In this document: positions 8,276 to 30,979 of the stretch, piece by piece | Position numbering within the stretch: position 1 is the first letter of the stretch | Layout of the letters: each line of letters starts with the position of its first letter | DNA from: Anaerohalosphaera lusitana | Lineage (GTDB): Bacteria > Planctomycetota > Phycisphaerae > Sedimentisphaerales > Anaerohalosphaeraceae | NCBI RefSeq assembly: GCF_002007645.1 | Contig: NZ_CP019791.1 | Span: 1 to 64,000, forward strand | DNA: 64,000 nt | Direction of reading: 5' to 3' | The notes under the pieces: model-generated | The model's database searches: none | The model's input: the letters and a program-made list of their open reading frames with translations, nothing else | Told to the model about the DNA's origin: nothing | Translations under genes and position numbers: made by a program

Positions 8276-8337
8276 AACAAAGCGTTTGCAGCCTTTTTTG
8301 ATGAGACTGCATAATCCGAAGGCTTGTCATACACCTA

Positions 8338-9057: not shown

Positions 9058-9066
9058 CGTCCCCCC

Positions 9067-13895: not shown

Positions 13896-14957
<1,062 letters not shown>

Positions 14958-14964
14958 TTAATAA

Positions 14965-15450
14965 TTATAGCTTTTTGTCGCGACCGACGCACCTGACCGT
15001 GAGCGTCCCGTCGGCAATATCGAGATACATATTTCGCGGCGACGTCCCGCCGATATCTTCCGCATCGATGAACATCCCCAGCTTCCAGAACACCTTCCGT
15101 ATCGCAAGATGGTTCCGCTTGCCGATGTCGAACCCCTTGGGCCCTGTCGACATCGCAGCCCCGCCCGCGATCTTGACGTTCATACGTTTTTTCGACGCCC
15201 CCATCGAGACCATCTTATCCACCAGCAGCTTGATCCCCGTATCCGCGAACATGAACGGCAGGCGTTTCGCCTTCTCCGGATCGAGCTTCGATTCGGGCAA
15301 CTGATAGTGCAGCATCCCGCCGATCTTTGTCGCAGGATCGTAAAGCGAAACCCCCACGCAAGACCCGAGCGAGTATGTAACGATCACCTCGTTCGGATTC
15401 CGCGAAACCGCCGCGTCGGATATATCTACTGTTTTCTTTGTCTTAACCAT
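14965..15450 (-). CDS. cheD: Chemoreceptor glutamine deamidase CheD
   Basis: CheD deamidates specific glutamines of chemoreceptors and, in systems with CheC/CheX, takes part in adaptation. At 161 residues it is of normal size. The catalytic set Thr25, Cys31 (YSLGSCVGV) and His48 (GMLHY) keeps the spacing of the Thermotoga enzyme (Thr21, Cys27, His44). The GGTSPRN segment near 133-139 is also conserved. It lies six bases after cheR. CheX-type proteins are encoded elsewhere in the window (29.7 kb), which may partner the adaptation branch. Confidence 0.95.
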   Translation of the reverse strand: MVKTKKTVDISDAAVSRNPNEVIVTYSLGSCVGVSLYDPATKIGGMLHYQLPESKLDPEKAKRLPFMFADTGIKLLVDKMVSMGASKKRMNVKIAGGAAMSTGPKGFDIGKRNHLAIRKVFWKLGMFIDAEDIGGTSPRNMYLDIADGTLTVRCVGRDKKL

Positions 15451-15456
15451 AGCGTG

Positions 15457-16311
15457 CTACACCTTGGCATAAATTGTCGGTTGAACATAACGGAAGCGGT
15501 GCTTGATCCCGGTCAGCGATTCCGAATGCCCCGTAAAGAGCACCCCGCCGGGCTGTAGAATATCGTAATACCGGTTCACCAGCCGCTCCTGTGTCGGCTT
15601 ATCAAAATATATCATAACGTTCCGACAGAATATAAAATCCAGCGGCACCTTGATCGGCCACTCCTGCATCAGATTGAGCTGCCCGAAATAGATGCACTCG
15701 CGAAGAATCTTCGCAACACGAAACATCTTCTCGCCGTCGCTTTTCTCACGAATCAGATAGCGATGCTTCAACTCCGCCGGCACCGGCGCTACCCGCTTTT
15801 CCGGATATATCCCAGTACGTGCCCGATCCAGCACCGTCGTCGATATGTCGGTCGCCAGGATCTTCACCTGAAACTCCGGCGCATTCTTCAGCTCACTCAA
15901 AAGCGTGATCGCCAGCGAATACGGCTCCTCGCCCGACGAACACCCCGCACTCCATGCACGCACCACCTTATCACCGGAAGCACGTTTTTTCGTGATCAGC
16001 GACGGCAGGAACTCATCACACAGAAAATCAAAATGCTTCTGCTCGCGAAAGAAGCTCGTCAGGTTCGTCGAGATCGCATCCACCAGCAGAGAAAACTCCT
16101 TGCCGCTGTGATCGCGAAGTGCATACGACAGATAATCGCTGATCGACCTGCGTTTCGTCACCCGCATCCGCTTCGCAAGCCTCGCCCGCACAAGCTCCTT
16201 CTTACCGTCATGCAGGTTGATCCCGCAATGCTCATAAATAACTCGGCTGACCTGACGAAAATCATCGTCGGTCAAATTCGCATCCGAAGAATATGTCGTA
16301 CAACCCACCAT
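15457..16311 (-). CDS. cheR: Chemotaxis protein methyltransferase CheR
   Basis: CheR methylates glutamates of chemoreceptors using S-adenosylmethionine. The 284-residue product shows the N-terminal helical domain (LTDDDFRQVSRVIYEHCGINL), TNLTSFFREQKHFDFL, the SAM-binding WSAGCSSGEEPYSLA, and the later LDFIFCRNVMIYFDKP and GGVLFTGHSESL motifs. All the expected motifs are present. It is the second gene of the operon, between cheA and cheD, and no pentapeptide-tether domain is fused to it. Confidence 0.96.
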   Translation of the reverse strand: MVGCTTYSSDANLTDDDFRQVSRVIYEHCGINLHDGKKELVRARLAKRMRVTKRRSISDYLSYALRDHSGKEFSLLVDAISTNLTSFFREQKHFDFLCDEFLPSLITKKRASGDKVVRAWSAGCSSGEEPYSLAITLLSELKNAPEFQVKILATDISTTVLDRARTGIYPEKRVAPVPAELKHRYLIREKSDGEKMFRVAKILRECIYFGQLNLMQEWPIKVPLDFIFCRNVMIYFDKPTQERLVNRYYDILQPGGVLFTGHSESLTGIKHRFRYVQPTIYAKV

Positions 16312-16358
16312 CTGCCTTCCCTGCCAAATCTATGTTTTCATATTATCCTTATTAACTA

Positions 16359-18623
16359 TCAGTTCGCAGCCAGCTCTATCAACCCAGGCACATCGAGTAT
16401 CAGACTCACCTTTCCGTTGCCCATGATCGCGGCCCCGGAAATACCCCGCAGGTCGCCGAACGACTCACCGAGGCTCTTGATCACGATCTGCTGCTGATCG
16501 AGCAGTTCGTCTACAACCAGCCCGCCCTTTCGTCCGTCCTCTTCGACGACAACCAGTGCCGAATCCGTCAGCTCCGTCGTATCCGGCTCCACGTCGAACA
16601 GATCATACAGACGAACAACCGGCACAAGCTCGCCCTGCACAGTCGCCATCTCGCCGCGTCCGTAAACCGTCGAAAGCTGCTCTGTCGTCGGCCTGATGCA
16701 GCGTTCGATCGCAAGTATCGGCAGTATATATATCTGTTCGCCGATGCGTACGACCTGGCCGTCAATGATCGCCAGCGTCAGCGGCAGGCGGATCGTAAAC
16801 TTCGTACCAACGCCCTTCTTCGATGATATATCGACCTTGCCTCGCAGCGATTCGATATTCTTTTTCACCACGTCCATGCCGACGCCCCGCCCCGACACCT
16901 CCGTGATCTTGTCCGCAGTACTCAGCCCCGCGTGGAAGATCAGCTTGTGTATCTCGTGGTCGGCCAGATCCTGGCTCGCCGATATAACGCCGTTCGCGAT
17001 AGCCTTATTGCGTATCTTGTCCGCATCGAGTCCGCGTCCGTCATCTTCGATCTCGATAACGATATTGCCCGACTGATGGAACGCACGCAGTTCGAGCTTA
17101 CCCACCGGATCCTTGCCCGCCTTACGCCTATCCTCCTCCGGCTCGATACCGTGGTCCATCGAATTGCGAACCATATGCACGAGCGGATCCGCGATCAGAT
17201 CGACGACATTTCGGTCCAGCTCCGTATCCTCACCTTCCGTAACGAAATTGATCTTCTTGCCGCTCTTACGTGAAAGGTCGCGTACCAGCCGTGCCATCTT
17301 GCCGAACACACCCTGGATCGGAACCATACGCATGAGCATCGCAAGCTCCTGCAGTTCACGCACGATCTTACCCTGCTGATTGATCTTCGCTGAAAGTGCT
17401 ATATCGCTTTCGCAATGCGTTTCCGCGTGCTGCGTTATCATCGACTGCGCGATCACCAGTTCGCCGGCCATATTGACAAGCTTGTCCAGCCGACCGGTAC
17501 CGACCTTGATCTTCTCCTCGGTCTGTGTCTTAACTGTCTTGGCAGGCTGTGATTTGCCAGTACTTCCGGCAGACTTTTCAGCCGTTTCCGTTTTGGCTTT
17601 GTCCTCGCCCTTGGGCTTATCATCCGCTTTCGGTGCATCTGCCGCCGGGGTCTTTTCCGTATCAGGCTGCGGAGCCGTTTCAGCTTTTTCCGCTGTGGGC
17701 TCTGGTTTTTCAACTTTCGGTTTTGATTCCGATTTATCCCCCGCTTTACCGCCGTCTGGCTTCTGGCATGCCTCGATACGCTTAAGCAGCTCAGCAAGGC
17801 CAGCCTGTGAACCTATCGGGGTTCCGTTCTCCACACCCGCCTTCAGATCGCTGATCTGGTTCTTGAGCATATCGATCGCTTCGAAAACCACATCCATCTT
17901 TTCGTCAACCAGGACAAGCTCACCCTTGCGCCCCATGTCGAGCAGATTTTCCGATGTGTGAGCAAGCGAACCAATATCCTGCAAATTGAGAAACCCAGCC
18001 ATACCTTTGACAGTGTGGAAGCTGCGGAAGATCGTATTTATCGAATCGGCATCCGTCGGATTACTTTCCAGCTCAAGTAAACCCGCCTCTGCGGACTCAA
18101 TATGCTCCTGGGCCTCGGTAATGAAGTCCAGTATCAGCGGCGCGTCCTCTTCAGGTATCGTAAGACCCGCCGGCTCACCCTCAGATGCTGGTTCCGCATC
18201 AGCCTTGCTCTCTTCGCCGGCCTCGGTCTCTTCCGCAGCAGATACCTCCTCGATGTCCGCCTGAAGGTCGCCCAGGTCGAACTCGGGAAAACTGATATCC
18301 CCAAGCGCATCCAGCTTATCCGCAAGCGTGTTCTCAACGATCGCCTGCAGCGACACTACAGTATCCGCGATCACTTTGATGGTTTCATCGTCCGCGTCCT
18401 CGCCGTCAGCGATATACTTAGCATATTTTGCTGCCGAACTCGCCGCCGACGCTGCCTGCGACTGCAACTGTTCGGGCAGATCGGCAAGCTCGCTGATCTG
18501 TTGGGATATCTGATCGAATACGTCCAGCAGCCCCGCCAGATCCGACGGGTCGTCCACGCTAACCATATTAATGGTGGATGCTGCCTGATGCACAAGATTT
18601 ACTAGTTTGCTGTTTTCTGTCAT
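16359..18623 (-). CDS. cheA: Chemotaxis histidine kinase CheA
   Basis: CheA autophosphorylates and passes phosphate to CheY and CheB in the receptor array. The 754-residue protein carries an unusual N-terminal segment of about 150 residues (helical, then acidic) before the Hpt domain with the phospho-accepting His203 in SFHTVKG. A long Ala/Pro/Lys/Glu linker (about 285-370) follows, then dimerisation, the ATPase domain (HMVRNSMDHGIE N-box, GRGLD, GRGVGMDVVK) and a C-terminal CheW-like domain. A separate P2 CheY-binding domain is not obvious; the linker may replace it. It is the first gene of the che operon; no cheW or receptor gene is in the window. Confidence 0.96.
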   Translation of the reverse strand: MTENSKLVNLVHQAASTINMVSVDDPSDLAGLLDVFDQISQQISELADLPEQLQSQAASAASSAAKYAKYIADGEDADDETIKVIADTVVSLQAIVENTLADKLDALGDISFPEFDLGDLQADIEEVSAAEETEAGEESKADAEPASEGEPAGLTIPEEDAPLILDFITEAQEHIESAEAGLLELESNPTDADSINTIFRSFHTVKGMAGFLNLQDIGSLAHTSENLLDMGRKGELVLVDEKMDVVFEAIDMLKNQISDLKAGVENGTPIGSQAGLAELLKRIEACQKPDGGKAGDKSESKPKVEKPEPTAEKAETAPQPDTEKTPAADAPKADDKPKGEDKAKTETAEKSAGSTGKSQPAKTVKTQTEEKIKVGTGRLDKLVNMAGELVIAQSMITQHAETHCESDIALSAKINQQGKIVRELQELAMLMRMVPIQGVFGKMARLVRDLSRKSGKKINFVTEGEDTELDRNVVDLIADPLVHMVRNSMDHGIEPEEDRRKAGKDPVGKLELRAFHQSGNIVIEIEDDGRGLDADKIRNKAIANGVISASQDLADHEIHKLIFHAGLSTADKITEVSGRGVGMDVVKKNIESLRGKVDISSKKGVGTKFTIRLPLTLAIIDGQVVRIGEQIYILPILAIERCIRPTTEQLSTVYGRGEMATVQGELVPVVRLYDLFDVEPDTTELTDSALVVVEEDGRKGGLVVDELLDQQQIVIKSLGESFGDLRGISGAAIMGNGKVSLILDVPGLIELAAN

Positions 18624-19125
18624 TTTAACACCTGCATTAAGAGATCGAGCACTGGTTCGTTAACGCTCATGTGAACTATCGGCCAACCCGCAGAGCCGAT
18701 TTAGCTGCAAACAGGGAAATTGCGGATATAAGCTGCTGGACAGCGGCCTCCGGTCTGAAAAATCAACGAGATGACAAAAACCGCACTTATGGGGTTCAAA
18801 AGCGGGCTTCTTACCGTCATGATGGTGTGTAAACCTACAACTCATCAATAGTAATAATCACCTAAAACAGCACAGACCGACTCTTCGATTTTGAAGACAC
18901 ATTTTGACCGCTGAAAGGCCCTTTTTATGGGACATGATATGTTTATCCGACATACCGCCTCAATCGTGAACAGCGGGAAACTGCTGACGTATCTGGAATT
19001 GAAATGATTTGCCCGGACGAATTGTGCAAAAATGCGGCTTTTATTGCTCCGCTGATAAACAGATTCAACGTTTTTTTGACAAATGCCGATTGATATTACA
19101 GGACCTTTACGCAAATTAATGCCGA
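18624..19125. other. Divergent intergenic region between cheA and cysC
   Basis: About 500 bases with no supported gene; two small minus-strand frames (18660-18848, 18845-19132) lack recognisable features. Its right end carries two copies of AATGCCGATTGA (19082-19093 and 19119-19130), the second merging into the -35 of the cysC promoter, so they could form an operator. I could not find a clear promoter for cheA. Confidence 0.4.
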
Positions 19126-19154
19126 TTGACACGGTCTGATAGTTTCTTTATACT
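19126..19154 (+). promoter_or_regulatory. Strong sigma-70 promoter of the cysC-cysD-cysN operon
   Basis: TTGACA (19126-19131), a 17-base spacer, and TATACT (19149-19154) make an almost ideal vegetative promoter 62 bases before the cysC start. A direct repeat of AATGCCGATTGA overlaps the -35 and lies 37 bases upstream, a plausible operator. Confidence 0.8.
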
Positions 19155-19216
19155 CTCTGGCTAAACCAAGGCCGACCGGGCCAACTTCTTAAGCATATCC
19201 GGAGTTATCGGAACAA

Positions 19217-19774
19217 ATGACGAAAACAGACAGTGAACATTCTAGAAACGGCGACACCGGTCTGGTGATATGGCTCACCGGCCTGTCAGGCAGCGGTAAG
19301 AGCACCCTGGCTGACAGACTGTATGAGGTATTGAACAAGAAGCTCCCCAGGGTCGAAAAACTGGACGGGGACGTCATACGTTCATATTTCCCCTCCACCG
19401 GATTCACCAAGGCAGCCAGGGACGAACATATAAAGCGGGTAGGATTTATCGCCTCCCTGCTGGAAAAGCACGGAGTCACAGTCATCGCCTCTTTCATCTC
19501 CCCCTACAGCGACACCAGAAAGCTGGTCAGGAATATGTGCGGCAATTTTCTTGAGGTCCACGTCAAGGCGTCTATCGAAGAATGTGAACGCAGGGACGTG
19601 AAGGGACTCTATAAGAAGGTCCGCGCAGGCGAGATCACCAATTTCACGGGCATCGACGACCCCTACGAGGAGCCGGTGAACCCGGAAGTCGTCGTAGATA
19701 CGGAGAAGCTGACCGTGGAAGAAGCCGCGGAGAAGATTTTACAAGCTATCAGTTTAAGTTGTGAGGCAAAGTAG
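19217..19774 (+). CDS. cysC: Adenylyl-sulfate kinase
   Basis: Phosphorylates APS to PAPS, the universal sulfate donor. The 185-residue enzyme has an intact P-loop GLSGSGKST (22-30), the DGD motif after LPRVEKL, the FISPYSD segment, and the lid GLYKKVRAGEITNFTGIDDPYE. These are all catalytically expected residues, in contrast to the kinase-like domain at the end of CysN. The stop codon is directly followed by the cysD start. It heads an operon whose last member is a sulfotransferase, so the purpose is probably PAPS for sulfation rather than assimilation only. Confidence 0.96.
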   Translation: MTKTDSEHSRNGDTGLVIWLTGLSGSGKSTLADRLYEVLNKKLPRVEKLDGDVIRSYFPSTGFTKAARDEHIKRVGFIASLLEKHGVTVIASFISPYSDTRKLVRNMCGNFLEVHVKASIEECERRDVKGLYKKVRAGEITNFTGIDDPYEEPVNPEVVVDTEKLTVEEAAEKILQAISLSCEAK

Positions 19775-20656
19775 ATGGATCATCTCGACCGTCTGGAAAG
19801 TACAAGCATACACATCCTTCGCGAGGCATACGCGAACTTCAAGAGCCTTTGCATGCTCTGGTCGATCGGTAAGGACAGCACGGTAATGCTCTGGCTGGCC
19901 AAGAAAGCGTTTCTCGGGCACGTCCCCATACCGCTGGTTCACATCGACACCAGCTACAAGATCCCGGAGATGATCGAGTATCGTGACCGGCTGACAAAAG
20001 AATGGAACCTGGACATGGTCTACGGCATGAACCATGAGGCCCTCAAGGCCAGTGAAACGTTCCCCGCAGGCAACACCGACAGACTGACCTGCTGCAAGAT
20101 GCTCAAAAGCGAGGCCCTGCGAAACACGCTCAGCGGTCGCTGGCCCAGGCACAGGTTCAACCACAATCTCGGCAAGTACGAGATCGACAAGAACGCCGAG
20201 CCTTTCACCGGCGTGATCGTTGGCGTACGCTCGGACGAAGAAGGATCGCGTTCGAAGGAACGTTACTTCTCGCCGCGCGACAGGGAAAACGACTGGGACA
20301 TCGCCGACCAGCCCCCCGAGCTCTGGAACCATTACAAGACAGACTTCGCGCCCGGCACCCATGTCCGCATACATCCCCTGCTCGACTGGACAGAGCTGAA
20401 TATCTGGGAATACATCGAGCGTGAAAACATACCGACGGTTTCGCTGTATTACAATCAGGGCGACGGCAAGCGATACAGATCGCTCGGCTGCGCTCCCTGC
20501 ACCAATCCCATCGAGTCCGAAGCTCGCAATGTATCCGAGGTCATCGAGGAACTGCGCAGCGGACAGCTATCAAACATCGCAGAACGCAGCGGACGTGCCC
20601 AGGACAGCGAAGATGGCGGCGGACTCGAAAGCCTCCGCCGCGACGGTTATATGTAA
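19775..20656 (+). CDS. cysD: Sulfate adenylyltransferase subunit 2
   Basis: Catalytic subunit of the heterodimeric ATP sulfurylase; it adenylates sulfate to APS. The 293-residue protein belongs to the PAPS-reductase-like ATP pyrophosphatase fold with the PP-loop SIGKDS (30-35), followed by [14 protein letters not shown], the TCCKMLK segment and the conserved [18 protein letters not shown] and LGCAPCT. Its ATG begins at the base after the cysC stop, so translation is probably coupled. It needs the CysN GTPase encoded next. Confidence 0.96.
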
Positions 20657-20723
20657 TCGCGGACACTAACAGATGTACCGACAGACTTCGAGACTAGCCT
20701 TAACTTGACAGGAATGAGTGATC

Positions 20724-22547
20724 ATGAAAACAGCGGAAGCTGAAAAACAGGTTGCAAGAGAACACATGAACATCGTCATCGCCGGGCATGTCGATCACGG
20801 CAAGAGCACGGTGATCGGACGAATGCTGGCTGACACCAATTCTCTGCCCCAGGGCAAGCTCGAACAGATCAAGGAGCGGTGCAGACGCAACTCCAAGCCT
20901 TTCGAATATGCATTCCTGCTGGACGCTCTCAAGGACGAGCAGTCGCAGGGCATCACCATCGACTCGGCAAGAGTGTTCTTCAGTTCAGCCAAGCGCGAAT
21001 ACATCATCATCGACGCGCCCGGCCATATCGAGTTCCTCAAGAACATGGTCACCGGTGCATCCCGCGCCGAAGCCGCCCTGCTCGTGATCGACGCCGAGGA
21101 GGGCGTACAGGAAAACAGCCGCCGGCACGGCTACATGCTCAGCATGCTCGGCATCAAGCAGGTCGTCGTAGTGGTCAACAAAATGGACCTGGTCGATTAC
21201 AGCGAAGAAACCTACAAGAACGTAAAAGCCGAATACACGAAATTCCTCGCCGACATCGGGCTCGAAGCGATATTCGTCCCTGTAAGCGGCATGGCAGGCG
21301 ATAACATCGTATCCCTCAGCGACAAAATGTCCTGGTACCAGGGCGCTACGGTGCTCGAAAGCATCGACGGATTCGAAAAAGAACCACCCGCCATCGACAA
21401 GCCCTTCCGCATGCCCGTACAGGACGTTTACAAATTCACCCAGGCAGGCGACAAACGGCGTCTCGTCGTCGGCACCATCGAGACCGGACAGGTCTCCGTA
21501 GGCGATGAACTGGTCTTCTACCCCTCGGGCAAAAAAAGCACCGTCAAAACCGTCGAGCGGTTCAACGTACCGCAAAAAGACACCGCAGCCGCGGGCGAAG
21601 CCATCGCACTCACGCTCGATCAGCAGATATACGTCTCGCGGGGCGAAGTCGCGGCCAGGACCAGCGAAACAAAGCCCGAAGTCACCAGCAGGCTCAGCGT
21701 CAACCTTTTCTGGATGGGTCGAAACCCAATGGTCAAGGGCAAACGCTACCTCATAAAGGTCGGCACCATGAAAGAAGAGGTCGAGCTCGAAGACGTCATC
21801 CGAGTCATGGACGGCTCCGACCTCGAAGCGAGCGAAACAAAAGACAAGGTCGAGCACCACGACGTCGCAGAATGCGTGCTCTCGACCAAACGCGCGATCG
21901 CCTTCGACCTGGCCGAAGAAATAGCTGCCACGGGCAGATTCGTCGTCGTAGACGATTACGAGATACGAGGGGGAGGCATAATTCGCGAGGGCCTGAAAGA
22001 CGAACAGGTCTGGGTCCGCGACTACGTGATGCGCCGAAACTACAAGTGGGAGACCGGTGAAGTCTCACGCGACGACCGCGCCGAAAGATACAGCCAGCGA
22101 TCCAGCCTGGTACTCATAACCGGTCAGCGAGGCGTCGGCAAAAAGCCCCTCGCAAAGGCACTCGAAGCCAGATTCTTCACCGAGGGCAGATTCGTCTATT
22201 TCCTCGGCATCGGAAACATCCTCTACGGCGTCGACGCGGACATCAAATCACAGGAAAGCGAAGGCAACGGCCAACGGCAGGAACACTTGCGAAGAATGGC
22301 CGAAGTCGCCAACGTCATGCTCGATGCTGGCATGATACTCGTCGTCACCGCAGTCGGCCTGACCAACGAGGACCTGGAAGTCATTCAAACCGCGGTCGAT
22401 TCCAGGCAGATCAACGTAGTCTGGATGGGCGACGAACCGACCGACATCCCCTGCGATCTGGTACTGCCGCAAAACGGCGACCTCAGCGACGCAGGCGAAG
22501 CGATCAAAACCATGCTGCAGGACAAGGGCATTATCTACAGACCCTAA
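20724..22547 (+). CDS. cysN: Sulfate adenylyltransferase subunit 1 with a degenerate C-terminal APS-kinase domain
   Basis: CysN is the GTPase that drives ATP sulfurylase. From ATG 20724 (AGGA upstream; GTG 20718 is an alternative) the product is 607 residues. GTPase motifs are GHVDHGKS (21-28), DAPGH and NKMD, followed by the beta-barrel domains up to about 440. The last 150 residues align with APS kinase ([12 protein letters not shown], then [22 protein letters not shown]), but the P-loop Ser/Thr is Lys, the DGD motif is LGIGN and FISP is lost, so this domain should be catalytically dead. An intact CysC is encoded two genes upstream. The dead domain may be a scaffold for CysC or an evolutionary relic of a CysNC fusion. 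Confidence 0.94.
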
Positions 22548-22586
22548 CCGCAGCGAACGCAAATTGACATATCAATCAGGATGCGT

Positions 22587-24842
22587 ATGAATTCAAATGC
22601 CGGAAAGCCCGAACTCAAGGGCAGGAAGCGGTCCGCACAGAGAAAAGCGACCGCAAAAAATGGGGGCTTCGACTGCAGAGCGGAACTCCTGAAGGGACTT
22701 AACCTTTTCAACCAGGGCAAACTCCCCGAAGCCGAAGCGTGCTACAAAAAGGTGCTCTCTGCCGACCCGCAGAACCACGAGGCCTATAACCTGCTCGGCC
22801 TGCTCGCAGAACGCTGCGGCCGACAGGATCTGGCCGTCCAGTTCTTCAACAAGGCCATCCAGCTCGCACCGCAGGTCGCGGGCTATTACCTCAACATGGG
22901 CAATCTCATGCACCGACTCGGCAAGCTCGACGAGGCCCTCGCCTGTCACACAAACGCCCTCAAGCTCGACCCCAAAAACGCAGAGGCACACAACAACCGC
23001 GGCATCGTCCTCTACGACCAGCAAAAGTACGACGAGGCCCGCCAATGTTACGCCGCCGCCCTCGCCCTCAACCCAAAGCACCCCCAGGCCCTCAACAACA
23101 TGGGCAACACACTGCGTCAAAGCGGCGAACTCGACGAAGCAGTAGAATATTACGAAAAAGCACTCGCCCTCCAGCCCCGCTACGCAGACGCATACAACAA
23201 CCTCGGCACCATCCACTACAAACAGATGCGCTACGATCAGGCCCTCGACTGCTACGACAAGGCCCTCGAGCTCAACCCCAACAACCCCGAGATATACAAC
23301 AACCTCGGTACCTTCCTCCAGGACCAGGACAAACTCGACGAGGCCCTGGAAAATTGCAAAAAATCCCTCGCCATCAATCCCAACTACCCCGAAGCCTACG
23401 TAAGCCTCAGCAAAATATTCCACCTGCAAGGCAAGCAGGATGACTCGATCGCCGCTGCCGAAAAGTCAGTCGCTCTCGGTCAACACAAAGCTTGCTGCCA
23501 TGCCCAGCTCGGCAAAATGCTCTACCTCAAAGATGAGCTTGACCGCGCAATAGAACGCTACGAAAAATGCATCGAACTTGAACCAGACGCTGCCCAGTAC
23601 CACGTCGCCATGGGCAACATCATGCGCGCAAAAGGCCTGCCCCAAAGGGCTCTGGCATGCTACCAAAGCGCCTGCGAACTCAACGACCAGCACGGCGGCG
23701 CCGCTGCCGCCATCGGAGCGGTCTACCTCGAACAGGGCGACAAAGACAAGGCGATCACCCAATTCGAAAAAGCCATCACCATCGACCCCCTCTGCACCGA
23801 AGCATACGACAGCCTCGCAAGCATAAAAAAGTTCGACAAAGACGACGAACTGTTCACCTCACTCGAACAGCTCGCCGCAGACGTACTCCCCGCCAACAAA
23901 AAGATGTCCATACATTTCGCACTCGGCAAAATGTATCAGGGCGTCGAAGAATACGACCGGGCGTTTGAAAACTACCTCGAAGCAAACAGCTTGCGTAAAA
24001 AACAAAAGGGCCAGGAATTCAGCATCAAAGAATTCAAGTTCCAGGTCGACATGTTCACAAAACACTTCGACCGCAATTATTTCGAGACACGCAAACAATG
24101 GGGCCTCGATACCGAGATGCCAGTTTTCATCGTCGGCATGCCCCGCTCCGGCACATCTCTCACCGAACAGATCATCTCCAGCCATCCCCAGGCATTCGGC
24201 GCAGGCGAGCTGATCGACATAAAAATGATACGCCCGGCCTTGCTCAACCGTTGCAACGCGAAGAGCGTCGAACAGTTCCTGCAAAACCTAAAACCCGACG
24301 ACATCGACTGGGCGGCAAACAAATACCTAAGCCGCATCATGGATTTATCCGGCGGCGAAGCCCCCCGCGTCATCGACAAAATGCCGCAAAACTTCAGCAA
24401 CCTCTGGCTCATCGCCATGATGTTCCCCAACGCAAAGATCATCAACACACGAAGAAACCCCGCCGACACCTGCGTCTCCATCTTCACGCTCGACTTCGTC
24501 AAGGGCCACGGCTACAAAAACGACCTGCGAACCCTCGGCACCTACTACCACTACTACGACAAACTCATGCAGCACTGGAAAAAGGTCCTGCCCGTCCCCA
24601 TCATGGAAGTGCACTACGAACAGCTCGTCGCCGACCAGGAACGCATCAGCCGCGACATCATAGACTTCTGCAACCTCGAATGGGACGACCGCTGCCTCGA
24701 GTTCCACAAAACCAAACGCCGCGTCATGACCGCAAGCGCAGGCCAGGTCCGTAAAAAGATGTACAGCACCTCCGTAGAACGCTGGCGCCGTTACGAAAAA
24801 CACCTCACCCCCCTGCTCGAAGCGATCGAGAACGGATCCTGA
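22587..24842 (+). CDS. TPR-repeat sulfotransferase
   Basis: A 751-residue fusion (second ATG 22587, preceded by CAGGATGCGT). Residues about 28-480 contain a long run of tetratricopeptide repeats with the recurring pattern YYEKALALxPxxADAYNNLG, which form a superhelix for holding a protein or glycan partner. The last 240 residues are a sulfotransferase: the 5-prime PAPS phosphate loop PVFIVGMPRSGTSLTEQI begins near residue 512, and the region around INTRRNPADTCVSIF has the 3-prime phosphate-binding Arg/Ser. Related TPR-sulfotransferases act on tyrosine or on glycans, and are common in planctomycetes. No signal peptide is visible. As the last gene of the PAPS operon, it is the likely consumer; the substrate is unknown. 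Confidence 0.9.
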   Translation: MNSNAGKPELKGRKRSAQRKATAKNGGFDCRAELLKGLNLFNQGKLPEAEACYKKVLSADPQNHEAYNLLGLLAERCGRQDLAVQFFNKAIQLAPQVAGYYLNMGNLMHRLGKLDEALACHTNALKLDPKNAEAHNNRGIVLYDQQKYDEARQCYAAALALNPKHPQALNNMGNTLRQSGELDEAVEYYEKALALQPRYADAYNNLGTIHYKQMRYDQALDCYDKALELNPNNPEIYNNLGTFLQDQDKLDEALENCKKSLAINPNYPEAYVSLSKIFHLQGKQDDSIAAAEKSVALGQHKACCHAQLGKMLYLKDELDRAIERYEKCIELEPDAAQYHVAMGNIMRAKGLPQRALACYQSACELNDQHGGAAAAIGAVYLEQGDKDKAITQFEKAITIDPLCTEAYDSLASIKKFDKDDELFTSLEQLAADVLPANKKMSIHFALGKMYQGVEEYDRAFENYLEANSLRKKQKGQEFSIKEFKFQVDMFTKHFDRNYFETRKQWGLDTEMPVFIVGMPRSGTSLTEQIISSHPQAFGAGELIDIKMIRPALLNRCNAKSVEQFLQNLKPDDIDWAANKYLSRIMDLSGGEAPRVIDKMPQNFSNLWLIAMMFPNAKIINTRRNPADTCVSIFTLDFVKGHGYKNDLRTLGTYYHYYDKLMQHWKKVLPVPIMEVHYEQLVADQERISRDIIDFCNLEWDDRCLEFHKTKRRVMTASAGQVRKKMYSTSVERWRRYEKHLTPLLEAIENGS

Positions 24843-24874
24843 ACTTTGACCCCCATATATCTGACGAAAAAAAG

Positions 24875-24910
24875 AAAGGGCGGTTTGCCAATAACAGCAG
24901 CCGCCCTTTT
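24875..24910. terminator. Bidirectional terminator between the sulfation operon and fliS
   Basis: Perfect 9-bp stem AAAGGGCGG (24875-24883) with CCGCCCTTT (24901-24909), flanked by an A run on the left and T residues on the right, so it can end transcription from both convergent operons. Confidence 0.9.
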
Positions 24911-24931
24911 GATTTTCTATTTAATGCCGTA

Positions 24932-25291
24932 TCACTCGCAGATATCTTTCCAAGCCTGGTTAAGCTCATCCATGCACTCGATCACTTCCTCGACAAGCTT
25001 TGGATCGTTCTGAGCGTTCGCACGCGCCAGATGCCCGTGCATAAAAGAATATAGTTTGCGAAGATTCACAGCGATCTCCCCGCCCGCCTCCATGTTCAGC
25101 ACGGCATTGAGCTCATTAATAATATCCTGAGCCTTGGTGATGTACTTGCCCTTCTCCTCGAAATTCTCAGCTTCCATTTCGCGAATGGCCAGCTTCATGA
25201 ATTTGATCGCGCCGTCGTACAGCATCACGACCAGCTTGCTGCGACTCTGCGTCAGAACTGCTGTTTCCTGATATGCGCCTATACCGTTCAT
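24932..25291 (-). CDS. fliS: Flagellin chaperone FliS
   Basis: FliS binds the C-terminus of newly made flagellin and stops it polymerising in the cytoplasm. The 119-residue, all-helical protein matches the family in length and in the N-terminal YQETAVLTQSRSKLVVMLYDGAIKFMKLA and GKYITKAQDIINELNAVLNMEAGGEIAVNLRKLYSFM segments. It is downstream of fliC on the same strand, 208 bases away, with a strong hairpin in between. Confidence 0.93.
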   Translation of the reverse strand: MNGIGAYQETAVLTQSRSKLVVMLYDGAIKFMKLAIREMEAENFEEKGKYITKAQDIINELNAVLNMEAGGEIAVNLRKLYSFMHGHLARANAQNDPKLVEEVIECMDELNQAWKDICE

Positions 25292-25420
25292 ACTGATATT
25301 TCCTCTCTACCTGCAGTGGTGGTTTTGCTGTGGGTAGATGATATTCGATGTTGGTTCATCATTGTGATTAGCCAATGACGAAGCGTTTTCTTGCACCCAA
25401 TTCTTTTAAGATCTGGACCA

Positions 25421-25447
25421 CCGGCTGTTCGATCCGTGAACAGCCGG
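25421..25447. other. Perfect 10-bp hairpin between fliC and fliS
   Basis: CCGGCTGTTC (25421-25430) and GAACAGCCGG (25438-25447) pair perfectly with a 7-base loop. There is no T run on either side. It may stabilise or partly terminate the fliC transcript. Confidence 0.5.
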
Positions 25448-25499
25448 CGTCCAGGAAAATTCAATCCAATGCGGCATCCGTGCCCTTAGATCAAGTCGC

Positions 25500-26735
25500 T
25501 TACCTAAGCAGCGACATAGCCATCTGAGGCATACCGTTTGCCTGTGCCAGCATAGAAACACCGGCCTGAGCCAGTACCTGATTTCTGGTCATCTTTGCCA
25601 TCTCAGTGGCAACGTCGACGTCAGAAATACGAGATTCCGCTGTCTTCAGGTTCTCGGACTGGATGTTAAGAACCGAATTCGTGCTCTCCAGACGGTTCAT
25701 CTTGTAACCGAATGCCGCACGAGCCGTGTCCTTCTCCTTAATGGCTGAATCTATTGCTGTCAGAGCAGCAACCGCGCCATCTTCAGTACCGATGTGGATG
25801 CCGTCACCTGCTGCTGCTGTAAAGTCAGCCGTCGTCAGATCGTCGTCCGTTGTACCACCTGCTACTGTGAACCCTTCACTTGCAGCAACGTTCGCTTCTG
25901 TTGTGGCAGTCATCGTCATTGAGGAGGATGACAATGTTTCGGACTCGAGCTTCAGAGAGTAGTTTCCGCTGCCGTCATCTTCAGCCGAAGCCATCGTATA
26001 ACCGGCTGCCGTGTTGACTGCAGATACTACGTCGTCAAGAGTGAAAGTAGCTGTCGTTGTGGTTGTGTTTGTAGGACCGGCGAATGTAGCCGTAACCGCG
26101 TCTTCACCGTCAAACTGAATGTTCAGAGTCATGCTTTCATTGGTACCACCTGTCAGGGTCAGGAACGACGTCGTATCGGTGTCAGTTACAGTGTGATCGG
26201 ATTCTGCCTGATAACCGGCAGTTGCAATATCGATACCCAGGCCTGATTTTGTCATGTCGACCTTGTCAACATCGATCGTCTCCTCGGTACCGACATGAAC
26301 ACTGACGTTGCCCTCATCAGTATTGAGCATGGCTAGACCATTGAACGAGGTAGAACTCGCAATACGCTCGATCTCATTGGCCATTTCCTTGAACTCATTG
26401 TTCATGATAGCACGCTGCTCGTTCGAATAAGAACCTGTAGCAGCCTGCTCAGCGAGTTCCTTCATACGGATGAGGTTTTCATCCATTACCGCCATCGCAC
26501 CTTCCATTGTCTGAAGCATGCTGATGCCGTCCTGTGCGTTTCGGCCTGCCTGATCGAGAACTGCGATATCTGCACGCATAAGTTCGCGAACCGCCATGCC
26601 CGCTGCGTCGTCCTTTGCACCGTTGATACGAAGACCTGAAGACAGTCTTTCAACAGACTGCGACAGATTGTCGTAACTCTGGCCCAGATGACGGGCAGCA
26701 TTCGTCGCCATCAAATTGTTTTTAATTGCTAACAT
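25500..26735 (-). CDS. fliC: Flagellin
   Basis: Structural subunit of the flagellar filament, 411 residues. The N-terminal D0/D1 part (1-130; LAIKNNLMATNAARHL, SSGLRINGAKDDAAGMAV) and the C-terminal D1/D0 part (about 335-411, ending in Leu-Leu-Arg) are conserved. The central 200 residues are extremely rich in Thr, Ser, Gly, Asp and Ala and low in aromatics, a surface-exposed domain with many possible modification sites. This is of interest because a sulfotransferase gene lies nearby. The gene seems to have its own promoter, which I cannot define; FlgM implies a sigma-28 site. fliS follows after a hairpin. Confidence 0.96.
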   Translation of the reverse strand: MLAIKNNLMATNAARHLGQSYDNLSQSVERLSSGLRINGAKDDAAGMAVRELMRADIAVLDQAGRNAQDGISMLQTMEGAMAVMDENLIRMKELAEQAATGSYSNEQRAIMNNEFKEMANEIERIASSTSFNGLAMLNTDEGNVSVHVGTEETIDVDKVDMTKSGLGIDIATAGYQAESDHTVTDTDTTSFLTLTGGTNESMTLNIQFDGEDAVTATFAGPTNTTTTTATFTLDDVVSAVNTAAGYTMASAEDDGSGNYSLKLESETLSSSSMTMTATTEANVAASEGFTVAGGTTDDDLTTADFTAAAGDGIHIGTEDGAVAALTAIDSAIKEKDTARAAFGYKMNRLESTNSVLNIQSENLKTAESRISDVDVATEMAKMTRNQVLAQAGVSMLAQANGMPQMAMSLLR

Positions 26736-27212
26736 TTCCGTTACTCCTATTAAAAGAAACTAACACATTCCACCCCCAAACGTGAGGGGTTTTGATTTTC
26801 CGTCAATCCATTCCAAAGAACCATTCAGTAAGGGTCAGGGAGGACCGCCTACAAACAAATTGTCGAAGCGAAATCAGTCAACTTAAGAGCTTTTGCTGAA
26901 AAAAGATGTGCATATGTGTACGGCCGGCACGAGTCCCGATTTTTGATACTGGTAACCGCGAAATCGCCACCGATCGGCTTACACAATTTTAGGGATTTTT
27001 CCCCATGGCCCATATTTTTTTGTTCATCACAAAAAATGGACCCAACTAAATCAACATCCCCCGCCGCATAACTTCACCGACCGCCAACAATGGACCCGCA
27101 TCAAAATAACCGTCGCGAAGCGACTCCATATTTCCAACGCCAACCGCTCCTCCCAACAAAAACAACCAGCACGCTCAACTCCCGCATCTAACAAAAAACG
27201 TCGCTCTTTTTT
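26736..27212. other. Region upstream of fliC
   Basis: The 5-prime region of fliC plus flanking sequence. A GCCGATCG on the minus strand (near 26965-26972) resembles a sigma-28 -10 but has no -35 at the right spacing. A minus-strand frame at 27051-27434 runs through the repeats and is not believable. Confidence 0.35.
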
Positions 27213-27246
27213 GTCACCCCGGCCTCCGAGCCGGGGTCCAGAGAAC
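27213..27246 (+). repeat. Hairpin repeat, GC-rich variant
   Basis: GTCA, then CCCCGG (27217-27222) paired with CCGGGG (27231-27236), then TCCAGAGAAC. It shares both flanks with the hairpins at 27337 and 27464 but has a different, internally complementary stem. Confidence 0.7.
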
Positions 27247-27336
27247 TCAGCGAGTACACATGCACGCATAAAACAGCATACAGCCTTCGCGTCTCGAAAT
27301 ACGAGCATGGCCAAAACGTGAGCATCAACCAATCTT

Positions 27337-27365
27337 GTCATCCGCCGCAGGCGGACCCAGAGAAC
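27337..27365 (+). repeat. Hairpin repeat, short variant
   Basis: GTCA-TCCGCC-GCA-GGCGGA-CCCAGAGAAC: same flanks as the neighbouring repeats with a third stem sequence. It immediately precedes the 131-bp array. Confidence 0.7.
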
Positions 27366-27370
27366 ACAAC

Positions 27371-28115
27371 GCCAGTCAGCACCACCCGGCGGCTTTACGC
27401 AAAACACCCGCCAACCGCATGCAGCCCAAAACACTGTCTTCGCGAGGAGCGAAGCAACGTCCTGTCATCCCAAACTTGATTTGGGATCCAGAGAACACAA
27501 CGCCAGTCAGCACCACCCGGCGACTTAACGCAAAACACCCGCCAACCGCATGCACCCCAAAACAATGTCATCGCGAGGAGCGAAGCAACGTCCTGTCATC
27601 CCAAACTTGATTTGGGATCCAGAGAACCCAACGCCAGTCAGCACCACCCGGCGACTTAACGCAAAACACCCGCCAACCGCATGCAGCCCAAAACACTGTC
27701 ATCACGAGGAGCGAAGCGACGTCCTGTCATCCCAAACTTGATTTGGGATCCAGAGAACCCAACGCCAGTCAGCACCACCCGGCGACTTTACGCAAAACAC
27801 CCGCCAACCGCATGCAGCCCAAAACACTGTCATCGCGAGGAGCGAAGCGAAGTCCTGTCATCCCAAACTTGATTTGGGATCCAGAGAACCCAACGCCAGT
27901 CAGCACCACCCGGCGGCTTTACGCAAAACACCCGCCAACCGCATGCAGCCCAAAACACTGTCATCGCGAGGAGCGAAGCAACGTCCTGTCATCCCAAACT
28001 TGATTTGGGATCCAGAGAACCCAACGCCAGTCAGCACCACCCGGCGGCTTTACGCAAAACACCCGCCAACCGCATGCAGCCCAAAACACTGTCATCGCGA
28101 GGAGCGAAGCGACGT
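27371..28115 (+). repeat. 131-bp tandem repeat array, about 5.7 copies
   Basis: Units begin at 27371, 27502, 27633, 27764, 27895 and 28026, exactly 131 bases apart; the sixth stops matching at about 28115. Copies differ at only a few positions. Each full unit holds two modules: a GCGAGGAGCGAAGC-centred one, and a 33-base hairpin element (first copy 27464-27496, arms TCCCAAA/TTTGGGA). Both modules occur again, inverted, between fliP and fliQ. As 131 is not a multiple of three, overlapping open frames appear in the array, but they are not genes. Confidence 0.95.
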
Positions 28116-28247
28116 GGCGATCTCAAACTCCACTATAAAGTTTGCTCACTCATAACAAACACCCCACACCGCTTTGTGGTCCCCAGCCGAATGTGCGCGC
28201 ACAAATATCGCACAGGTCAAAAGTAAGGTAGTGAGAATGTGACAATA
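28116..28247. other. Short spacer between the tandem array and the CheX-CBS gene
   Basis: The end of the last repeat module (GTGGCGATCTC, 28114-28124) is followed by unique AT-richer DNA without gene or terminator that I can identify. Confidence 0.3.
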
Positions 28248-29735
28248 TCAGGCTATGGGCGGAACGTCTGTGTTCTGACCTGCCGTCGAAGTGTCCTCGT
28301 CCCTGAGCAACGCGTCAAACACGGTGAACGCCGTCAAAATGCCCTTTACGCCCTTCTCATCCGCAACAGGAAGTGCGCGAATAGAGTGCTTGAGCATCGT
28401 ATCCATAGCAGATGCAAGAGGAGCGTCCGGCCTTATCGTACGCACAGGCCGGCTCATGAACCACTTGATCTTTATCTGCAGCGTCGCGGTATCCTGCTCA
28501 CGGCGATACTTGGCGAACACATTGTTGAGATACGGGCTCAAGGCCGCCCGGATGTCGGACTTCGACACAATGCCCCCCAGCGAATCCTCCGCACCTACCA
28601 GCACATACGCAGCGTTGTTCTGCTGCATGCTGGCAAGCACCTTCTCTACAGTTTCATCCTGCGTTGCCCATACGACATCCGTCCGCATTGCATCCGCAAC
28701 AGGCGTATTGTTCAGCATCGCAATGTCGCCTGTTGATACACCGGATGTCGTCCTGGTCAGCCTGCGAATCTCCTGAGAGATCGGCCCGCCGTCTTTTTGA
28801 GTTTTCTCTTCATCAGGCTGCTCAGTCTGAATCTGCTCATCCTCAGCTTCGACCTGCTCCGCGTTTTCCGCTGCAGCAGGTTCCGGCTTTAACTCTTCTT
28901 CAGGCTGTTCGGGTTCAGGCGAATCTGACGCTTCCACCGCTTTTTGTTCGGCTGCTGCTTCATCTGTTTTGACCGTCTGCTTTTCTGCTTCAGGATCTTC
29001 CTTCTCCTCAGCACTTGCCCCGTTATCAGCACTGTCAGCAGCGATTTGCCCATCCGCCGGTTCAGTTTTTGCTTGCGGCTTTTCCTCTGTTTTCGCTTCA
29101 GGCTCATCCTGTGTTTCGACTGCTTGCTCCGTCTCGGGCTCTGCCTGTTTCTCTTCGAACAGAGACACCGGCAGGACCGCTGCGCACTTGACCGGCTCAT
29201 ACTCGTCCAGCGTCATTTCATAGCCCACAGCTACAACCTGCTCATCAGCAGCGAGCGATATCTTCTCCTCCGACTTCATAAAAGGCTTGCCGATGAATGT
29301 TCCGGACTGAAGAAAATGCTCGTGACCTTCCATCTCTTCTCTGAAGAAACGGTCCCACGCACCTACCAGCAGATTGCCCACTTCGCCCAGAGCGTCAGCG
29401 TGCTCTTTCGCATCGTCTTCTGTGCCGGCCTTGCGGTTCTTGTCTATGATGTTGTCCGGCAGCATCACAAAAACACCCGCCAGGGTGAACAATGCATCCT
29501 GATCGAGCATTATGTGAAAATTGCCGTCTAAAGCACCCGAACTCTTCACCGAATAGACGCAGGTAAGCCGCTTAAATTCCTTTTTAAGACTTTTGAATGC
29601 GCACGTCTCTATCTCCAGTTCACAACCGCTTGCCTGGATGCCGAACATCGAGGCGATATCGTCGCAAAAAGCGTCGAAGGCACCAATGGTTACCTCGACC
29701 GCTGAGTTCTGCAGATCTGTAAGTGCTTCAGCCAT
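28248..29735 (-). CDS. CheX-like domain fused to tandem CBS domains
   Basis: A 495-residue protein with three parts. Residues 1-190 resemble the CheC/CheX phosphatase fold; E118 and N121 in GEVGNLLVG form the ExxN active-site pair of CheX. Residues about 195-325 are a disordered Glu/Ala/Pro/Gln linker. Residues about 345-480 hold two CBS domains (MLNNTPVADAMRTDVVW and KWFMSRPVRTIRPDAPLASAMDTML), a ligand-binding module for adenosyl nucleotides or c-di-nucleotides. It is the last gene of the fliK-flgM-cheY-cheX operon, five bases after cheX, with AAGGA before its ATG. A nucleotide-controlled CheY phosphatase or sequestering protein is a reasonable guess. I know no named family with this architecture. 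Confidence 0.75.
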   Translation of the reverse strand: MAEALTDLQNSAVEVTIGAFDAFCDDIASMFGIQASGCELEIETCAFKSLKKEFKRLTCVYSVKSSGALDGNFHIMLDQDALFTLAGVFVMLPDNIIDKNRKAGTEDDAKEHADALGEVGNLLVGAWDRFFREEMEGHEHFLQSGTFIGKPFMKSEEKISLAADEQVVAVGYEMTLDEYEPVKCAAVLPVSLFEEKQAEPETEQAVETQDEPEAKTEEKPQAKTEPADGQIAADSADNGASAEEKEDPEAEKQTVKTDEAAAEQKAVEASDSPEPEQPEEELKPEPAAAENAEQVEAEDEQIQTEQPDEEKTQKDGGPISQEIRRLTRTTSGVSTGDIAMLNNTPVADAMRTDVVWATQDETVEKVLASMQQNNAAYVLVGAEDSLGGIVSKSDIRAALSPYLNNVFAKYRREQDTATLQIKIKWFMSRPVRTIRPDAPLASAMDTMLKHSIRALPVADEKGVKGILTAFTVFDALLRDEDTSTAGQNTDVPPIA

Positions 29736-29740
29736 TCAAT

Positions 29741-30217
29741 TCAGCTTTCCTTGCTTCTGTACAACAGCATCAATTCTGCCGGGCATTCGTCTATGCAAAC
29801 GACCTTCTTGATTTGCACAGCACTGTCGCCCAGGCTCGACGAGAGCTCCTTGCCGCTTACGACACAGGGAATGGAAACGTCGAGATTGCTCAGGCCGTTT
29901 TCCAGCAGCCTGGCCTTGACGCTTCCCATTACCATATTGGCTATCTCGCCCATGGCGTCGCGTATATCCTCTTCTGCCAGGCCGTCTTCCGGCTCCATAC
30001 CCAACATCGTCGCGGCGATCAGCGTTGCGTCATCTTTGCCGCAGCAGATGGACATACAGCCTTCCAGCTCGCCCTTGAAAGTGATCGAGCCCAATAACGC
30101 ATCGCCCTCTACACAATCCACTTCCGGGTTATCATCAACCGTCATAAATATCATCGTCTCGAAGACTTCTTTCGCCGCGTCGACGAGCACTTCCAAGTAG
30201 CATGTTTCCGCTATCAT
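29741..30217 (-). CDS. cheX: CheX-type CheY-phosphate phosphatase
   Basis: CheX proteins remove phosphate from CheY. The 158-residue product matches the family, with the catalytic E91 and N94 in GEIANMVMGSVKARLLE and the usual mixed sheet of the CheC/CheX fold. Its placement next to cheY supports a phosphatase role. The following gene repeats this domain fused to CBS modules. Confidence 0.88.
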   Translation of the reverse strand: MIAETCYLEVLVDAAKEVFETMIFMTVDDNPEVDCVEGDALLGSITFKGELEGCMSICCGKDDATLIAATMLGMEPEDGLAEEDIRDAMGEIANMVMGSVKARLLENGLSNLDVSIPCVVSGKELSSSLGDSAVQIKKVVCIDECPAELMLLYRSKES

Positions 30218-30253
30218 GTCTGTTCCTCTCAGGAATGGATTCTTCAGTTATTG

Positions 30254-30625
30254 TCACATCAGCGGCGACAGCGCCTTCTGAATGCTCTCGGGTGTGAACG
30301 GCTTGGTAACATAACCGTTGGCACCGTCTGCCATAACGCTCTCGATCAGATCGTCCGAGCTCTCAGTGGAGATCATGACGATCTTTGTGTCATTACAGGA
30401 ATCCATTTCCCGAACCTTCTTTACAAGTTCCAGCCCGCCCATGCCCGGCATGTTGATATCGCAAAGCATAATGTCTGCCGGCTGTGCATTGAGTTTTTCC
30501 AGTGCTTCGTTGCCGTCGCCCGCTTCTTCGAAATTGTCGATGTCAAGACCCGCCATACGAAGTGTCCGCAGGATGATCTTACGCATTGTTGCAGAGTCAT
30601 CTACCAGTAAAAGTGACTTAGCCAT
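30254..30625 (-). CDS. cheY: Chemotaxis response regulator CheY
   Basis: Single receiver domain of about 123 residues from ATG 30625 (MAKSLLLVDDS; GGAG nine bases upstream). An upstream in-frame extension is not homologous. Visible are the acidic pair VDDS, phospho-acceptor Asp in IMLCDINMPG, the switch Ser in ISTES and the Lys in VTKPF. Phosphorylated CheY controls the direction or speed of the flagellar motor through the switch. It lies in the flagellar regulator operon rather than in the cheA operon. Confidence 0.95.
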   Translation of the reverse strand: MAKSLLLVDDSATMRKIILRTLRMAGLDIDNFEEAGDGNEALEKLNAQPADIMLCDINMPGMGGLELVKKVREMDSCNDTKIVMISTESSDDLIESVMADGANGYVTKPFTPESIQKALSPLM

Positions 30626-30690
30626 GATTAAGCTCCAAAATTCGTGACTTCTTATATAGATTTTCAAACGTCACGAACACCATCGACACC

Positions 30691-30960
30691 TCAGAAACCG
30701 AACTTTAGGATGTTTGCAGCGGCAGCATTAATATTTGTAGAAGATTCCAGCTTTCCAGCGGCTATCATCGCCTTTGCCCGCTGTATCCGGTCGGCACTGT
30801 TTCGCTCGATTTTGGGTAATTTCCCCAGCGTGTCCTTTATGCGGCTGTCAAAAACTGCGTCCTTATCCTGTTTCGCTGAGTCCGTCTGTTTACGCTGATT
30901 TGCTGCAGCGTCAACGTTTTTGATACTGGCAGCGGCGTTTTGTGTGTTTTCTATTCGCAT
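30691..30960 (-). CDS. flgM: Anti-sigma-28 factor FlgM
   Basis: FlgM holds sigma-28 until the hook is finished and FlgM is exported. The 89-residue protein is largely disordered and rich in Ala, Lys and Asp, with the C-terminal sigma-binding helices RIQRAKAMIAAGKLESSTNINAAAANIL matching the family pattern. It lies 20 bases downstream of fliK. The presence of flgM implies a fliA gene outside the window and a late-gene checkpoint in addition to the sigma-54 tier. Confidence 0.8.
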   Translation of the reverse strand: MRIENTQNAAASIKNVDAAANQRKQTDSAKQDKDAVFDSRIKDTLGKLPKIERNSADRIQRAKAMIAAGKLESSTNINAAAANILKFGF

Positions 30961-30979
30961 AGTTTATACTTATGGCTCA

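Follow-up and report, generated by a model that had tools for sequence, protein, structure and literature searches.

A sulfate-activation operon ending in a TPR-sulfotransferase gene inside a flagellar gene cluster of Anaerohalosphaera lusitana: a candidate system for protein sulfation

The first 64 kb of the 4.25 Mb single-contig genome of Anaerohalosphaera lusitana (NZ_CP019791.1, positions 1 to 64,000; the window) contain a tight run of four plus-strand genes at 19217-24842, cysC, cysD, cysN and a gene for a sulfotransferase with tetratricopeptide repeats (TPR-sulfotransferase), which lies among flagellar and chemotaxis genes. This gene content had been proposed in an earlier note on the same DNA; the positions were confirmed, and the identities were established by profile searches. 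CysC, the adenosine 5'-phosphosulfate (APS) kinase (19217-19774, 185 aa), matched PF01583 with 182.5 bits and TIGR00455 with 199.6 (cut-off 138.7). CysD, the small subunit of ATP sulfurylase (19775-20656, 293 aa), scored 350 bits against the broad model NF003587 (cut-off 195) and fell below the cut-off of the narrower TIGR02039 (242 vs 397), while CysN, the large subunit (20718-22547), scored 354 bits against TIGR02034 (cut-off 336); for cysN, the ATG at 20724 is a more likely start than the GTG at 20718. The TPR-sulfotransferase (22581-24842, 753 aa) contains TPR repeats and a Sulfotransfer_3 match of 151.7 bits.

Gaps between the four genes are short: 0 bp (cysC-cysD), 61 bp (cysD-cysN) and 33 bp (cysN-TPR-sulfotransferase). 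A sigma-70-type promoter, TTGACA-17-TATACT, is present on the plus strand at 19126-19154, bearing out the strong promoter that the earlier note had seen: it has 11 of 12 consensus matches and is the sole site of such quality in a 10.5 kb scan of 17500-28000, in which promoter-like sites altogether occurred in a chance number (seven, with 6.2 expected). The common strand, the 33 bp gap and the one good promoter-like site would be compatible with co-transcription of the TPR-sulfotransferase gene with cysCDN. At the distal end, a hairpin at 24874-24910 lies between the operon and fliS-fliC. The segment 24862-24926 folds with -24.8 kcal/mol (z -6.3), a value matched in 0 of 200 shuffles, and the hairpin was not among the predictions of a consensus terminator scan. 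Because A/T tails flank it on either side, it could serve as a bidirectional terminator for both convergent units; of the shared terminator proposed earlier, the strong hairpin stands and the sharing is a possibility.

A search of the genome for the APS_kinase family gave matches at three places, among which the CysC of the window alone is full length. The other two PF01583 matches lie at the C-terminal ends of the genome's CysN proteins (20718-22547 of the window and 7779-9620 of a second locus, L044), spanning only positions 2-105 and 2-80 of 152 and having an altered P-loop. This truncated APS-kinase-like domain is probably not a kinase, and it is not peculiar to the operon, because both CysN proteins have it. 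The PAPS_reduct family was found in three genes, namely the cysD of the window and, 1.17 Mb away at L044, a second cysD and a cysH. The order at L044 is Rrf2 regulator, cysH, cysD, cysN and a gene for a 527-aa sulfite/nitrite-reductase-like protein that reaches no model cut-off; the CysD encoded there is the assimilatory paralogue of the window CysD and 72% identical to it. The CysH of L044 passes the APS-reductase model TIGR02055 (257, cut-off 235.3) and fails the narrow model TIGR02057 for reductases of 3'-phosphoadenosine 5'-phosphosulfate (PAPS) (154, cut-off 254.2), and it has the cysteine pairs CC and CAPC, which we take to be those of iron-sulfur APS reductases. Reduction of the APS type does not need PAPS.

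The view that the operon makes PAPS for sulfation, put forward in the earlier note, is well supported by the separate cysH-cysD-cysN locus, by a CysH that scores as an APS reductase and by the single full-length APS kinase; the PAPS of the operon would serve sulfation, and L044 can serve assimilation. The same note had held that a PAPS reductase or sulfite reductase in the same regulon, with no sulfated product, would speak against this view. No PAPS or APS reductase and no sulfite reductase was found among the genes scanned over 13896-32668, cheB to fliK (the scanned interval). As far as the locus itself goes, the objection does not apply; genes of this kind lie 1.17 Mb away, by the Rrf2 gene. 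The genome has three further Sulfotransfer_3 genes, this being the only sulfotransferase family searched for. By eye, one of these (L005, G000:C1 about 3347147) lies in an apparent sugar locus, after a sugar-acetyltransferase-like gene and before transposase-like reading frames, and in another (L007, about 3353881) the Sulfotransfer_3 region makes up the latter portion of a protein with a polysaccharide-deacetylase-like beginning.

The AlphaFold model of the 753-aa TPR-sulfotransferase, which has a mean predicted local distance difference test score of 93.1, combines an OGT-like TPR superhelix with a fold of the protein-tyrosine sulfotransferases (TPSTs). The superhelix (about aa 34-415; 22680-23825, plus strand) consists of about eleven 34-aa repeats, and residues 32-300 align with OGT chain 7ntf_B with Z 27.9 over 269 residues. 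OGT and SPINDLY were among the best matches of this half, and designed TPR proteins match it equally well (Z 28.9 vs 27.9 for OGT). An Asn at TPR position 6 in five consecutive repeats was considered as a sign of peptide binding and dropped, since it belongs to the usual TPR consensus. The best 50 Foldseek matches of the model were without exception TPR proteins or complexes that contain helical-repeat chains, and the TPST match emerged from a second look: in the predicted model, the sulfotransferase domain (aa 509-753; 24105-24839, plus strand) superimposes on human TPST1 (5wrj_A) with Z 22.6 and a root-mean-square deviation of 2.9 over 240 aligned residues. Sequence comparison likewise placed TPST1/TPST2 as the best solved relatives of this half, with E 7.5e-26 with a profile and 1.2e-13 without one, against 1.7e-5 for carbohydrate sulfotransferases (heparan sulfate 3-O). 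The domain contains a PRSGTS motif, and G542, E543, R625 and S633 are invariant across 49 homologues. Aligned with TPST1, E543 pairs with the second Glu of GEE, presumably the catalytic base, and Glu543, Arg625 and Ser633 are taken here to be residues with TPST roles. In predicted fold and PAPS-binding motifs the domain agrees with the TPST family, and the modelled arrangement of an N-terminal TPR half and a C-terminal transferase is that of FlmG and OGT.

Comparison with relatives revealed that cysC-cysD-cysN is an old cassette in the family. CysD was found at E 1e-60 in 24 of 40 genomes surveyed, own genome included, and fell into classes that are 79-83% (14 relatives), 70-73% and 51-54% identical to the CysD of the window, the third occurring in five genomes. 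In the 79-83% class (L191-L204), cysN follows cysD at all 14 loci, and cysC precedes it at 13, two of them cut by a contig end and the fourteenth lying on a contig that starts too late; cysH is beside cysD at none of these 14 loci. The six loci of the 70-73% class (L205-L210) all have cysH, and five have Rrf2. At 13 of the 14 cassettes (L194 counted) the gene directly after cysN is CysQ-like, with 56-73% identity to its L194 counterpart. CysQ clears 3'-phosphoadenosine 5'-phosphate (PAP), the by-product of sulfotransferases. For the two proteins scanned, TIGR01331 was the best NCBIfam model, with scores under its cut-off. In A. lusitana the position of the cysQ-like gene is occupied by the TPR-sulfotransferase gene; the proteins of the genome nearest to the CysQ-like one are two of 26-28% identity, one of which was profile-scanned and scored best as inositol monophosphatase or HisN. 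The operon is self-contained, as the earlier note had it, where PAPS synthesis is concerned, but not for clearing PAP: the CysQ-like member of the family cassette is absent from it. The cassette surroundings of three relatives were scanned with Pfam: L192 has a sugar transferase, an exosortase and an AAA-type ATPase, L194 has Kdo/WaaP kinases besides a glycosyltransferase, and L203 has glycosyltransferases as well as a sugar transferase. About 5 kb from the cassette of L203 there is also a weak cysI-like match (25%).

TPR-sulfotransferases are widespread yet patchy. At least 587 confirmed stretches were obtained from a scan of public genomes, and the enzyme was present in 56 of 391 genomes of a phylum sample (E 1e-60) and, within the order, in 3 of 161, own genome included (E 1e-20), which rules out conservation across the order. 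One genome of the order (L272, G111:C326, 1-13000) has six TPR-sulfotransferase genes within 12 kb and a seventh on G111:C16. In a tree of 184 domains, the enzyme of the window grouped on long branches with that of Hongsoonwoonella (L073, support 0.89) and then with those of Thiorhodovibrio (L053) and a gemmatimonadete (L078; 0.95), suggesting that it was transferred between phyla. Neighbourhoods were compared at the 79 public loci closest among the matches listed (62 after dereplication) and in 60 regions from Planctomycetota (59 of the phylum-sample matches and G111). Sulfate-activation or PAPS genes were near the enzyme at 5 of the 79 loci (L061, L068, L085, L091 and L100) and in 1 of the 60 regions (L243), and an autotransporter, a TPR-sulfotransferase and cysC occur together at L085 and L100. 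At L060, from Ferruginivarius, the enzyme gene is divergent from fliC inside a run of flagellar genes, of which fliS and fliC were identified by similarity and others, including fliD, fliW, flgL and flgK, by eye. At L107, two TPR-sulfotransferase genes directly precede a profile-confirmed flagellin gene, with fliS identified by similarity.

Genes flagged as encoding surface-protein-like products were enriched beside TPR-sulfotransferase genes. In a within-locus permutation such a neighbour was present at 11 of the 62 dereplicated loci, against 4.1 expected (p 0.0005), and at 17 of all 79 loci, against 6.7 expected. An earlier test (13/116 neighbours, 9/96 second neighbours and 9/484 farther genes; p 3e-5) mixes many related Mesorhizobium loci, and the permutation over 62 loci is the one to trust. 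Neighbours were called by a simple open reading frame rule, and the flag is crude, requiring a signal-peptide-like start plus a C-terminal F/W/Y, or length with richness in Ser/Thr/Asn/Gly/Asp; a flagged product of L088 looks like a lipoprotein, the flagellin of L060 was missed, and part of the flagged set probably encodes proteins of other kinds. Pfam matches among 132 neighbours (61 + 71 rows) included Porin_2 (3 + 4), Porin_4 (4, second set), OMP_b-brl (2 + 2) and the TonB barrel (3, second set), and outer-membrane families were absent from the 25 families listed, down to three members, for 132 farther genes. Class I aminotransferases were commoner among the neighbours (3 + 10), an excess put down to the related Mesorhizobium loci. 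In several mesorhizobia (L074, L114, L129 and others) TPR-sulfotransferase genes lie near a Porin_2-type porin gene, and the two are a possible enzyme-substrate pair. Matches were also found in 47 plasmid records, four of which were examined (H1-H4); an autotransporter gene is at most two genes away in three, and none was seen in H1. On a plasmid of Enterobacter sp. 638, typed conjugative (L275, 6876-13089), genes for a TPR-sulfotransferase, a GT8 glycosyltransferase and an autotransporter are consecutive.

The flanks of the operon are flagellar on one side and chemotactic on the other. The minus strand reads cheY, cheX, a CBS-domain gene, fliC, fliS, then 6.3 kb that hold the plus-strand operon, and cheA, cheR, cheD and cheB. 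FliS, the flagellin export chaperone (24932-25291, minus strand), matched PF02561 with 139.5 bits; FliC (25500-26735, minus strand; PF00669/PF00700) is a 411-aa flagellin with a central part that is 31% Ser+Thr and with 6 Tyr; and cheA (16359-18623, minus strand) was identified by a profile match. A second flagellin, 63% identical to FliC, is encoded at 99162-100424 of the genome. Between fliC and the CBS-domain gene lies an array of 131-bp tandem units (27222-28176), six 300-nt copies of which are in register and 82-100% alike, the first 65%. Twenty regions were fetched from relatives, 18 of them with fliC or fliS; some relatives (L285, L290 and L300) have several short tandem flagellins of about 275 aa that lack the central region, some followed by a fliS of their own. 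In L285, L286 and L287, fliS and cheA are separated by about 245-360 bp (measured between tblastn matches), compared with 6.3 kb in the window, and L297 is probably a fourth case, its fliS lying beside a weak match to cheA (34% over 154 aa) where the contig ends; by genome, three belong to the same family and one to a different family within the order. None of the 20 flagellar regions contained cysC, cysD or cysN. The simplest reading, with the direction of change unproven, is an insertion of the operon between fliS and cheA within the A. lusitana lineage.

Taken together, these observations suggest a dedicated protein-sulfation operon in which an acquired TPR-sulfotransferase was added to an old cassette, with the flagellin of the neighbouring fliC as leading substrate, a combined reading to which we give an even chance. 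Under this proposal, CysD and CysN would convert sulfate and ATP to APS, CysC would convert APS to PAPS, and the TPR-sulfotransferase, acting in the cytoplasm, would move the sulfuryl group to a protein before its export. Substrate binding would fall to the TPR superhelix, on the model of the TPR half of FlmG with flagellin, and catalysis to the TPST-type half. The cassette cysC-cysD-cysN-cysQ would have been joined with the acquired enzyme and would now lie between fliS and cheA; the adjacent-gene flagellin would be sulfated on Ser/Thr or Tyr and become about 80 Da heavier per site, and the second flagellin at 99 kb may be another substrate. That the operon sulfates a protein is likely, and the earlier alternatives of protein or glycan are narrowed in favour of protein by the TPST-type catalytic half, with glycan retained as a rival. 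Flagellin is the leading candidate because fliS-fliC lies next door and the operon sits inside the flagellar cluster, although we hold its identification slightly less probable than not.

Several findings weigh against this reading. The operon and fliS-fliC are convergent and are separate transcription units. Because no cheA was found beside fliS in 14 of the 18 regions, some of them cut by contig ends, an ancestral fliS-cheA order is not certain, and relatives with long flagellins have no TPR-sulfotransferase at E 1e-20. Flagellar genes were near the enzyme at only 2 of the 79 loci closest among the matches listed, L060 and L107, and in none of the 60 planctomycetotal regions. The flagellin-adjacent enzymes do not form a clade, the window enzyme grouping with neither L060 nor L107; a dedicated flagellin-sulfotransferase clade was sought in the 184-domain tree and not found. 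The flagellin of L060 is without any Tyr, and Tyr as a general acceptor is thereby ruled out. One relative (G012) has a TPR-sulfotransferase and retains cysQ in its cassette, the two being on different contigs; among the relatives searched both occurred only there, and the idea that the enzyme travels with the cassette in the family was rejected. The earlier note had named flagellin by location only; the adjacency of fliS and cheA in some relatives, the surface-gene neighbours elsewhere and the two flagellin loci among 79 have been added to location, and the proposal is still unproven with the above evidence against it.

Because cassettes of relatives lie near polysaccharide genes, glycan is the best rival substrate: the operon could sulfate a surface polysaccharide, or else the glycan part of a surface protein, its flagellar setting being incidental. 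The orthologous cysCDN-cysQ cassettes near polysaccharide or LPS-kinase genes in L192, L194 and L203, the sulfotransferase gene in the apparent sugar locus (L005) and the plasmid on which a TPR-sulfotransferase gene is followed by those of a GT8 glycosyltransferase and an autotransporter agree with this; the much closer match of the catalytic half to protein-tyrosine than to heparan sulfate 3-O-sulfotransferases and the lack of any glycosyltransferase in the scanned interval do not, and we regard a glycan substrate as somewhat unlikely. An exported protein encoded elsewhere, such as an outer-membrane protein, an adhesin or the second flagellin at 99162-100424, is an unlikely substrate, since in the window only fliC among such genes adjoins the operon, even though outer-membrane families, porins and TonB receptors included, are encoded directly beside TPR-sulfotransferase genes elsewhere, enriched by the crude rule, and a 63% identical flagellin is at hand. 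Finally, the operon might be a second set for sulfate assimilation or a general PAPS supply with the TPR-sulfotransferase as a passenger. CysD and CysN are general enzymes, the three other Sulfotransfer_3 enzymes may share the PAPS of the operon, and the CysH of L044 also scores above the broad PAPS-reductase-named models NF002537 (274 vs 154) and TIGR00434 (178 vs 165). This reading is nevertheless very improbable, as no cysH or sulfite reductase gene was found in the scanned interval, of the two narrow models the CysH of the genome passes the one for APS, cysH is accompanied by a separate cysDN set, and the sulfotransferase gene is the last of the same tight operon.

Beyond this locus, the protein-sulfation reading can be extended, tentatively, to a general bacterial system in which OGT-like TPR superhelices direct TPST-type sulfotransferases to exported surface proteins encoded nearby, the A. 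lusitana version having its own PAPS supply, having moved into the flagellar cluster and sulfating the filament. If this were true, flagellin, autotransporters and porins would be surface proteins reached by cytoplasmic sulfation of the TPR/TPST type, and TPR-sulfotransferase genes beside surface-protein-like genes would supply candidate enzyme-substrate pairs. Bacterial protein sulfation rests on few cases, RaxST/RaxX being the one found here. In the literature listings searched, by title and opening of the abstract, neither sulfated flagellin of bacteria nor bacterial TPR-sulfotransferases were the subject of any study; the nearest report listed describes a sulfated N-glycan on Halobacterium glycoproteins (PMC11980604). 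The RefSeq name 'tetratricopeptide repeat-containing sulfotransferase family protein' already covers the same domain pair and carries no function.

A PAPS supply dedicated to a sulfotransferase is known from two systems. Rhizobial NodPQ is described as a second ATP sulfurylase/APS kinase besides CysDN that provides PAPS for a specialised sulfotransferase (PMC6192434). As with NodPQ and NodH, the operon has ATP sulfurylase genes apart from an intact assimilatory set, together with an APS kinase; it differs in having a separate cysC, a truncated kinase domain in CysN and a sulfotransferase of the TPR + TPST type, whereas NodH acts on Nod factors, which are lipo-chitooligosaccharides. Xanthomonas RaxST is reported as a bacterial sulfotransferase active on tyrosine in vitro, with RaxPQ as its PAPS genes (PMC4216712). 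Here too PAPS genes accompany a bacterial sulfotransferase, but raxST shares its operon with raxA and raxB, which are secretion genes, and no exporter gene, RaxA/RaxB-type genes included, was found in the scanned interval. The combination of a PAPS operon, an OGT-like TPR half with a TPST-type half, and a flagellar cluster was not seen elsewhere; among the loci compared, only A. lusitana has its PAPS operon at a flagellar site. TPST1 and TPST2 are the best sequence relatives of the catalytic half and share its predicted fold (Z 22.6), and they differ by the TPR half of the bacterial enzyme: eukaryotic TPSTs are Golgi enzymes not known to have TPRs. The closest parallel in design is offered by OGT and by Caulobacter FlmG, likewise two-part enzymes with an N-terminal TPR half and a C-terminal transferase. 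FlmG is described as O-modifying flagellin in the cytoplasm, its TPR half binding flagellins in a two-hybrid test in which the transferase half does not (PMC7591256); in the A. lusitana enzyme the C-terminal half is a predicted sulfotransferase instead of a GT-B glycosyltransferase, and flagellin binding by the TPR half is putative.

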